NCBI RefSeq assembly: GCF_003937915.1
Contig: NZ_RHUM01000006.1
Location: forward strand, 62,001-126,000
Length of the DNA stretch: 64,000 nt
Source: Erwinia sp. 198
GTDB lineage: Bacteria; Pseudomonadota; Gammaproteobacteria; Enterobacterales; Enterobacteriaceae
Direction of reading: 5' to 3'
Part shown: positions 13,706 to 15,262 of the stretch, piece after piece
How the letters are laid out: the number at the start of each line of letters is the position of its first letter
How positions within the stretch are numbered: position 1 is the first letter of the stretch
The notes under the pieces: generated by a model
Told to the model about the DNA's origin: nothing
The model's input: only the letters and a program-made list of their open reading frames with translations
The model's database searches: none
Position numbers and translations under genes: made by a program

Positions 13706-13720
13706 TAGACGACCGGTCTA
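13706..13720. promoter_or_regulatory. NemR-type operator 1
   Basis: TAGACGACCGGTCTA is a perfect five-base inverted repeat (TAGAC/GTCTA). It lies 20 bases before the TetR-family start codon and recurs with one changed spacer base before the Hsp31-like gene at 14537. It resembles the E. coli NemR box built on TAGAC and GTCTA, so it is the likely autoregulatory operator. Confidence 0.8.
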
Positions 13721-13740
13721 ATCAGGTGTAAGGTAAGTTC

Positions 13741-14346
13741 ATGAACACAGCGACGCATAAACACAAAGACGATGTCCGCGAGCATATCCTCGCCACCGGA
13801 CAGCGCATCATGGCGGGAAGAGGCTATTCGGCCGTCGGGCTGAACGAAATCCTGACCGAAGCGGGCGTGCCCAAAGGCTCCTTCTATCACTATTTCGGCT
13901 CCAAGGATGCCTTTGCTGTCGCCATGCTGGAAAGCTATTTTGCCGACTATCAGGCCGGGCTTGACCAAACGATGAGCCAGCCCGGCGTCAATATGGCGCA
14001 GCGGCTGATGAACTACTGGCAGCAGTGGCAGGATACACAGTCCTTCCAGGACTGTCAGGGCAAATGCCTGGCAGTAAAGCTGGGTGCGGAAGTGGCCGAC
14101 CTGTCGGAAAATATGCGGCTTGCGCTGGAAAAAGGCACTTCGCAAATTGTGGCGCGGCTGGCTGAAGCCATTGAGACTGGCGCAGAAGAAGGATCGCTGC
14201 GGATTATCGACGAGCCAGGCCGGGTCGCGGAAAGTCTTTACCAGCTCTGGCTGGGTGCGAGCGTGATGGTAAAAATTGTTCGCCACAAAGGGCCATTTGC
14301 CTCTGCCATGCTGTTAACCCGACAGACGCTGGGTCTGGCAGGCTGA
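13741..14346 (+). CDS. nemR: TetR family repressor, NemR-like electrophile sensor
   Basis: TetR/AcrR repressor of 201 residues. The DNA-binding domain (about 10-60) carries GLNEILTEAGVPKGSFYHYF, as in NemR, which senses N-ethylmaleimide, methylglyoxal and hypochlorite in E. coli. The redox pair is kept: Cys109 in CLAVKLGAEV and Lys178 lie 69 residues apart, exactly the spacing of NemR Cys106 and Lys175, which form a sulfenamide bond. Operators lie before this gene and before the downstream Hsp31-like gene. Unlike E. coli, no nemA or gloA follows. An imperfect tandem copy of the gene's 3' end follows its stop codon. Orthology to NemR is likely but not proven. Confidence 0.75.
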   Translation: MNTATHKHKDDVREHILATGQRIMAGRGYSAVGLNEILTEAGVPKGSFYHYFGSKDAFAVAMLESYFADYQAGLDQTMSQPGVNMAQRLMNYWQQWQDTQSFQDCQGKCLAVKLGAEVADLSENMRLALEKGTSQIVARLAEAIETGAEEGSLRIIDEPGRVAESLYQLWLGASVMVKIVRHKGPFASAMLLTRQTLGLAG

Positions 14347-14460
14347 AAGGCCGTTTGCCTCAGCCATGCTGTCTCCTGCAAATGCTGGATATGAGTGGCT
14401 GCAAGGCCGTTTGACTCAGCGGTGCGGCAAACGCCCGGCCTGGCCGCCCGAAGTATTGCT
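14291..14460. repeat. Imperfect tandem repeat of the nemR-like gene tail, three units
   Basis: Three related units begin with GGCC(A/G)TTTG at 14291, 14349 and 14405, a period of 58 then 56 bases. The first is the last part of the coding sequence and the next two follow its stop. Units 1 and 2 also share the GCTGG...GGCTG end of the unit. The third has decayed most. Confidence 0.6.
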
Positions 14461-14497
14461 AAGCCAGGCGCAGAGTTTTATTACAGGTTTACGACCG

Positions 14498-14527
14498 ACA
14501 GGGCCAGCAGGCTGGCCTGTTTTTTTA
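14498..14527 (+). terminator. Rho-independent terminator after the nemR-like gene
   Basis: The stem CAGGGCCAGC / GCTGGC-CTG, with one bulged base and a very short AG loop, is followed by seven T residues. It ends 10 bases before the second operator, separating the repressor transcript from the Hsp31-like gene. Confidence 0.7.
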
Positions 14528-14536
14528 CCTCAATAT

Positions 14537-14551
14537 TAGACGACTGGTCTA
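14537..14551. promoter_or_regulatory. NemR-type operator 2
   Basis: TAGACGACTGGTCTA differs from operator 1 by a single base in the spacer. It lies 34 bases before the Hsp31-like start codon, where a repressor would block transcription initiation. Confidence 0.8.
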
Positions 14552-14584
14552 CTATTTACTAACGCCACTATGCGGAGAGACACG

Positions 14585-15262
14585 ATGAAAGTTTTAATGG
14601 TCCTGACCTCACACGATCGACTGGGTGACACCGGCCGTAAAACCGGTTTCTGGCTGGAAGAGCTGGCCGCACCTTATTACGCTTTTAAAGACGCGGGTGC
14701 CGAAGTGACTCTGGCTTCGCCGGCCGGCGGCAATCCACCGCTGGATCCAAAAAGTAACGAACCGGATTTTCAGACTGAGATGACGCATCGCTTTGAGGCT
14801 GATGCCGGGGCTGTTGCGCAGCTTGCTGCCACCGTGCGCCTGGACACAATTTCTCAGGCCGATTATGACACGGTGTTTTATCCGGGCGGGCACGGCCCGC
14901 TGTGGGATCTGGCCGAGGACAAGCACTCCATCGCCCTGATTGAATCTTTCCTCGCCGCAGAAAAACCGGTCGCGCTGGTTTGTCATGCGCCAGGCGTGCT
15001 GCGCCATGTGAAAACGCCGGCGGGCCGTCCGCTGGTGGAAGGGAAAAAGGTCACGGGCTTCGCCAACAGCGAAGAAGAAGGCGTCGGCCTGACCAACGTG
15101 GTGCCTTTCCTGGTGGAGGATGAGCTGGTGGCACAGGGCGGCATCTACTCTAAAGGCGCCGACTGGGGTTCCTACGTGGTTCAGGACGGATTGTTGATTA
15201 CCGGTCAGAACCCTGGCTCCTCCGCGGCAGCGGCCGCGCTGCTGCTTAAGCAGTTCGCATAA
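14585..15262 (+). CDS. DJ-1/PfpI superfamily protein, Hsp31-like glyoxalase III/deglycase
   Basis: Cytosolic class I glutamine-amidotransferase-like protein of 225 residues. The nucleophile elbow Cys133-His134 in ALVCHAPG, the acidic residue Glu25 in FWLEE and YPGGHG (99-104) match the Hsp31 group, whose members convert methylglyoxal to lactate without glutathione or act as deglycases or chaperones. I chose the ATG at 14585, five codons inside the longest frame, because GGAGAG stands at ideal distance before it. It has its own NemR-type operator, which fits a reactive-carbonyl defence role. The exact activity is inferred. Confidence 0.8.
   Translation: MKVLMVLTSHDRLGDTGRKTGFWLEELAAPYYAFKDAGAEVTLASPAGGNPPLDPKSNEPDFQTEMTHRFEADAGAVAQLAATVRLDTISQADYDTVFYPGGHGPLWDLAEDKHSIALIESFLAAEKPVALVCHAPGVLRHVKTPAGRPLVEGKKVTGFANSEEEGVGLTNVVPFLVEDELVAQGGIYSKGADWGSYVVQDGLLITGQNPGSSAAAAALLLKQFA

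Follow-up and report, generated by a model that had tools for sequence, protein, structure and literature searches.

The window, that is, the whole 64,000-nucleotide stretch of Erwinia sp. 198 DNA analysed here, contains on its forward strand a gene for a TetR-family repressor (13741..14346, 201 aa, with Cys105, Cys109 and Lys178) and, behind it, a gene for a DJ-1/PfpI enzyme of the Hsp31/Glx3-like branch (14585..15262, 225 aa). Each gene is preceded by a copy of a 15-bp box on the same strand: operator 1 (TAGACGACCGGTCTA, 13706..13720) lies 35 bp 5' of the repressor ATG at 13741, and operator 2 (TAGACGACTGGTCTA, 14537..14551) lies 48 bp 5' of the likely enzyme ATG at 14585, a start that was chosen by homology in a frame with an earlier ATG at 14570. 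The repressor exceeds the cut-offs of PF00440 and PF16925, and its 50.4 bits for PF00440 (TetR_N, cut-off 24) place it in the TetR family; likewise, the enzyme belongs to the DJ-1/PfpI family with 57.6 bits for PF01965 (gathering cut-off 26.6). The space between the two genes contains a hairpin and, behind it, seven consecutive T, an arrangement that resembles a terminator (14501..14526, forward strand). Three terminator-like sites occurred in the region compared to 2.3 expected in shuffles, which makes the hairpin weak evidence on its own, but its position between the genes suggests separate transcripts, which would explain the second operator. A scan near both boxes found no sigma-70 consensus promoter beside either of them. 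By eye, the terminal stretch of the repressor gene (GCCATTTGCCTCTGCCATGCTG) is repeated twice, imperfectly, right after the stop codon (14288-14430), as if copied.

An earlier, sequence-only reading of the locus had described two nearly identical boxes, one before the repressor and one before the DJ-1 gene, and both are indeed present, differing at a single position. They are not the perfect palindromes it had seen in them, since on reading the sequence only the arms TAGAC and GTCTA pair, with an asymmetric 5-bp core, GACYG, between them; TAGACCGGTCGTCTA is simply the reverse complement of TAGACGACCGGTCTA. The proposed genome-wide search for further copies was run as well. With either C or T allowed at position 9, the 15-mer exists in exactly two copies in the 4.53-Mb genome, the ones before the repressor and the DJ-1 gene; a rough calculation for both strands with equal base frequencies predicts approximately 0.02 exact sites. 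By this exact-box count the regulon in this genome would comprise two sites, which agrees with the earlier view of a self-contained cassette. The looser pattern TAGACNNNNGGTCTA also has two matches in the genome, a count that proves nothing because about two are expected by chance; here it is the conservation in relatives (76 of 80) that carries the proof. One-mismatch sites elsewhere in the genome were discounted: there are 11 matches in total, four of which are the two boxes read on both strands, and the reversed pattern gave 63.

This conservation was analysed in named genomes carrying the best 80 of 574 confirmed repressor relatives, chosen by protein similarity, by scanning the 220 bp that precede the repressor start and the first 30 bp of the gene. 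Within one mismatch, the box was found in 76 of these best 80 relatives (67 exact, nine with one mismatch) and the reversed pattern in none of the 80. The best matches were in direct orientation, 20-43 bp before the start, in 72 of the 76 cases, and on the other strand in the remaining four. No box before the repressor was found in this region in four of the 80 (L117, L124, L140 and L145), and L117 has an inverted box before an upstream DJ-1 gene instead. Furthermore, positions 6 to 9 were left free in the search and are nearly fixed nonetheless: among 110 sites preceding a repressor or DJ-1 gene (a few shared divergent sites are counted twice), they are G in 103, A in 109, C in 103 and C or T in all 110. 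Hence, not only the arms but also the asymmetric core is conserved.

Genes in the flanks of the same 80 relatives were located by tblastn. The fetched flanks span up to 5 kb, some being cut by contig ends, and 59 of the best 80 have a DJ-1 gene there, in Pseudomonadota and Actinomycetota, while none was seen in the fetched flanks of the other 21, some of which end at contig ends. Whether the DJ-1 gene has a box of its own within one mismatch depends on the arrangement. It does in 26 of 31 cases in which it starts 60-400 bp downstream of the repressor gene (the other five have two to three mismatches), in five of five in which it lies upstream on the same strand and in three of three with divergent genes. 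At less than 60 bp downstream no own box was found (0/6), nor at 401-600 bp (0/5) or above 600 bp (0/9, one with two to three mismatches), so that none of the 14 of 59 cases beyond 400 bp has a box of this quality. The second operator thus occurs in those arrangements in which the DJ-1 gene would have to be transcribed from a promoter of its own, with the 401-600 bp group as the exception; operon readthrough is assumed for the DJ-1 genes beyond 400 bp without own box. In a Methylobacterium group (L091, L095, L097, L098 and L114), DJ-1 starts approximately 435-480 bp behind the repressor without an own box, and the residue at the place of Cys105 is Tyr in four of the five sampled repressors and His in one. 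Two tandem exact boxes, 41-135 bp apart, stand before one DJ-1 gene in L046, L048, L049, L068, L070 and L080. Further neighbours of the relatives include old yellow enzymes, reductases of the CurA-like type and alcohol dehydrogenases that depend on iron; antisense "GlxA" matches over TetR genes in these loci were rejected as frame artefacts. A recurrent small ORF in L103, L115, L116, L119, L120, L130, L133 and L134, putatively an ABM-domain protein, recalls ArqI-gloA2, described in one paper as the glyoxal response of Pseudomonas aeruginosa (PMC12274486).

The box was also searched without any protein information. The exact 15-mer occurs at 113 sites in 70 of 295 genomes drawn from the order, the reversed pattern at two sites. 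For 111 of the 113 exact sites, falling into 77 loci, the sequence was retrieved, and each site was assigned the longest ORF of at least 80 aa starting within 260 bp downstream. All 111 face a gene of one of only seven homology groups, namely the repressor (42 sites) or six families of carbonyl- or electrophile-related enzymes: CurA-like (39), Fe-dependent alcohol dehydrogenase (Fe-ADH; 8), old yellow enzyme (OYE; 8), DJ-1 (6), aldehyde dehydrogenase (4) and AcuI/YhdH-like (4). None of the 45 ORFs facing away from the sites matches any of these groups. From the five groups besides repressor and DJ-1, one member each was scanned, and all five exceeded their Pfam cut-offs; against NCBIfam, the models for CurA, N-ethylmaleimide reductase and AcuI were over their cut-offs and those for Fe-ADH and aldehyde dehydrogenase under. 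DJ-1 is a minority client in the order of the window (6/111 boxes), and elsewhere the same box precedes CurA, Fe-ADH, OYE, aldehyde dehydrogenase and AcuI/YhdH. The "alternative effector enzyme" of the sequence-only reading is thus right, but it is only one case of a wider pattern of several enzymes.

In 30 of the 77 loci, two sites on the same strand are 646-831 bp apart, with a CurA-like gene behind the second box in 24, an Fe-ADH gene in five and DJ-1 in the window, which makes the duplicated operator a common layout. Such pairs might be taken to act jointly over a distance by DNA looping instead of serving as independent operators. We regard this as very improbable, as the spacing is roughly the length of a repressor gene and varies between loci with no constant phase, and as DJ-1 genes that lie upstream or divergently have their own box too. 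Two independent operators remain our preferred reading.

Regarding its identity, the repressor is CurR-like, neither CurR nor NemR by its sequence. Its best NCBIfam family is CurR (NF058643), with 241.9 bits under the cut-off of 300, and the next match is AcuR. Ten further proteins were scored against the CurR model; five exceeded the cut-off, and E. coli NemR reached 196.4 bits. Four of the five relatives over the cut-off have the box, which is exact and upstream in L127, L131 and L144 and present in L132 as a one-mismatch box plus an inverted exact copy, while no box was found in the scanned start region of L124. No paper on CurR was found in the open-access literature, outside of which most subscription papers lie. 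PA14_36300 is presumably the same gene as PA2196.

The sequence-only reading had named the repressor NemR-like, and one could extend this to a true NemR orthologue whose regulon was rewired from nemA-gloA to DJ-1. The nearest solved structures are 3rd3/4l62, followed by NemR itself (4yze, E 2.8e-47), the E. coli NemR box, TAGACCGACTGGTCTA, is operator 2 plus one C, and both proteins have the Cys-Lys pair with equal spacing. The genome has no second NemR- or CurR-like repressor, the next match having 30% identity, and it does contain nemA (72%) and gloA (83%), adjacent on another contig and without nemR, so that the window species appears to have lost nemR. However, a quickly built tree of 112 rows, with SH-aLRT as the sole branch support and no bootstrap, unites 18 NemR rows including E. 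coli NemR in a single clade (SH-aLRT 100). The window protein stands outside this clade, in a set of 14 rows (SH-aLRT 98), all with a CxxxC motif. The operators separate in the same way: a 16-bp box was found in five, 12 and 16 of the 18 NemR rows within one, two and three mismatches, respectively, and the 15-bp box within three mismatches in none of them, whereas the boxes of the window have 15 bp and not the 16 bp of the NemR operator TAGACCnnnnGGTCTA. Moreover, Cys21 and Cys116 of NemR correspond to Met24 and Ala119 in the window protein; Cys21 is present in all 18 NemR rows and in no other of the 112 aligned rows, and Cys116 in 26 aligned rows, the 18 of NemR and eight others, not including the window protein. 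Finally, in eight of ten genomes of the genus with a close orthologue, a second relative with 41-46% identity exists (these second copies are outside the tree). The NemR label was therefore given up, and NemR orthology, largely refuted by the tree, has in our view hardly any chance of being right. The window repressor is not linked to nemA-gloA, and these genes were also ruled out as further targets, since neither the 15- nor the 16-bp box was found within two mismatches in the surrounding 8 kb. At this place (L157, G000:C36:186500-194500), a 555-aa ORF lies directly 5' of nemA, with nemR missing.

The same alignment allows us to evaluate the putative cysteine switch. Cys109 and Lys178 are 69 positions apart, exactly as Cys106 and Lys175 of E. 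coli NemR, and to this extent the earlier observation of the pair is correct. It is not specific for NemR, because Cys109 is found in 112 and Lys178 in 111 of the 112 aligned rows, the majority of which do not belong to the NemR clade. In the order, 42 repressors stand behind exact boxes, the one of the window included; in these, Cys109 is invariant (42/42) and Lys178 is replaced in only two (40/42). According to two reviews, Cys21 and Cys116 are the electrophile cysteines of NemR and Cys106-Lys175 forms its bleach switch (PMC7464077, PMC12735817); because of this division, a carbonyl response cannot be predicted from the Cys-Lys pair by itself. Cys105, the additional cysteine, is present in 36 of the best 80 of the 574 relatives, 32 of which have DJ-1 nearby, and missing in 44, of which 27 have DJ-1, so that it tracks DJ-1 only in part in these counts, which are uncorrected for relatedness. 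It occurs in only two of the 42 repressors behind exact boxes in the order, hence the box does not require it. A structure model of the repressor has a mean pLDDT of 84.8 and a pTM of 0.82, but the loop that carries Cys105 and Cys109 is weakly modelled, with block means of 55 and 53, for which reason no switch geometry was taken from it.

TetR proteins usually bind ligands. Hence, the repressor could instead sense a specific small molecule (an aldehyde, enone, quinone or plant-derived compound) by its pocket and not by a cysteine, with DJ-1 acting on this compound or its product. The client enzymes in the order are, by family, of enone, aldehyde and acrylyl type, and AcuR as next best family match would fit as well. 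Nevertheless, an invariant Cys109 and a nearly invariant Lys178 are not obviously needed by a pure pocket sensor, and we give pocket sensing a minority chance.

The DJ-1 protein aligns over nearly its whole length with Candida Glx3 (4lru, E 2e-24), and its putative triad Glu26, Cys133 and His134 matches the Glu, Cys and His that we take to be catalytic in Glx3. By this aligned triad it is a putative enzyme of the glutathione-independent glyoxalase type; the HchA (E. coli Hsp31) model of NCBIfam gives only 46.6 bits at a cut-off of 365. Whether DJ-1 family members act as glyoxalase or deglycase is described as disputed in a review (PMC12735817). One study of E. coli saw no increase in the occupancy of hchA by RNA polymerase upon exposure to methylglyoxal (PMC3739934), so that control of DJ-1 by a NemR/CurR-like repressor would differ from the E. 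coli model.

Eight DJ-1/PfpI-type matches over the Pfam cut-off exist in the genome, and the DJ-1 of the cassette may thus be redundant. A second paralogue with 68% identity lies on contig C32 next to an ORF that, by visual inspection of its start, is CurA-like; the paralogue was rejected as a target, as no box within two mismatches was found in 8.5 kb, and judged from sequence alone the CurA-like ORF beside it also has no such box and offers no sign of curA control. There (L158, 2861-5086), the CurA-like ORF, the second DJ-1 and a small ORF stand in a row, perhaps a paralogous operon under other control. Across the genus, 33 of 37 genomes (its own included) have a repressor match at E 1e-20 or better, and there are ten close orthologues besides that of the window, with 57-78% identity. 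DJ-1 adjoins nine of the ten, three in the order of the window and six with DJ-1 first; the remaining one (G017) has kept the box, and no DJ-1 was seen in the 13 kb covered there. Other neighbours of these orthologues match the proteins in the first 30 kb of the window weakly, with up to 35% identity. Plasmids encode relatives at E 1e-40 or better as well, on 126 of 72,556 records and with 60-80% identity in 18 cases, and on the one plasmid examined, from Pantoea piersonii, a DJ-1-type gene follows the repressor relative. This distribution in the genus and on plasmids fits a cassette that moved as a unit.

Taken together, we think it quite probable that the locus is a two-gene electrophile/carbonyl-response cassette, consisting of a CurR-like repressor, two operators and a DJ-1-type client, with release based on Cys109. 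A dimer of the repressor would occupy each 15-bp operator, the one at the repressor promoter and the second copy at the DJ-1 promoter, and silence both genes. Cys109, the equivalent of NemR Cys106, would then be modified by a reactive electrophile, carbonyl or chlorine species, in a switch in which Lys178 and perhaps Cys105 may take part. The modified repressor would leave both operators, the DJ-1 enzyme would be made and remove the reactive carbonyl, and autoregulation of the repressor would restore repression. Binding, inducer, switch chemistry and enzyme activity are elements that we infer, and release from both operators by cysteine modification is modelled on NemR, whose cysteines release DNA upon oxidation or alkylation according to three papers (PMC7464077, PMC12735817, PMC5297802). 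In P. aeruginosa, one study reports no hypochlorite response of the gene that it calls nemR (PMC7950407). From the original interpretation, one repressor with two operators and DJ-1 as client in place of nemA/gloA persists, based on conservation, while the identity as NemR does not.

The window cassette is real, strongly conserved and was partly mislabelled before, and it is one case of a broader regulon defined by its operator. A further claim, which we put forward tentatively and rate as somewhat short of probable, is that TAGACGACYGGTCTA marks an undescribed carbonyl/electrophile regulon across Pseudomonadota and Actinomycetota, in which a single repressor subfamily and a nearly invariant asymmetric operator are combined with detoxifying enzymes that can replace one another; the DJ-1 branch, with CxxxC (Cys105-Cys109) and without Cys21/Cys116 of NemR, would then use a different switch chemistry. 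In the open-access literature, outside of which most subscription papers lie, we found no record of the 15-mer and, the reviews included, no report of DJ-1 being controlled by a repressor like NemR or CurR; an Acidovorax TetR paper concerns a pqi cluster, with no bearing seen on the cassette (PMC4204640). The box is predictive, as each retrieved exact site in the order faces a repressor or a carbonyl-handling enzyme, so that merely searching for the pattern may reveal how DJ-1, CurA, Fe-ADH, OYE, ALDH and AcuI-like genes are regulated. Moreover, a bacterial DJ-1 homologue gains a candidate dedicated regulator, so that its natural inducer can be sought directly, and an operator shorter by one base together with different cysteines separates two sister stress sensors.

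Compared to known systems, the enzyme resembles the Hsp31/Glx3-type glutathione-independent glyoxalases (yeast YDR533c, Candida Glx3) in its near-full-length match and aligned Glu-Cys-His, but it is nearer to the bacterial structures 4p5p and 1u9c, both listed without function. RcrR of uropathogenic E. coli is likewise described as a NemR-similar, hypochlorite-responsive TetR repressor; it is set apart by sensing that, according to the same paper, proceeds via Cys54/Cys95, and by other clients (PMC9600549). With E. coli NemR and its nemRA-gloA system, the cassette shares the TetR family, the equivalent of the Cys106-Lys175 pair, a related operator and carbonyl-detoxifying clients, whereas NemR forms a separate clade with a 16-bp operator and Cys21/Cys116 and controls OYE and GloA where the window has DJ-1. 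The Pseudomonas-type CurR/CurA system (NF058643/NF058644) provides the best family match and, in four of five proteins over the cut-off, the same operator; the window repressor differs from it in its score below 300, its additional Cys105 and a client that is DJ-1 instead of CurA.
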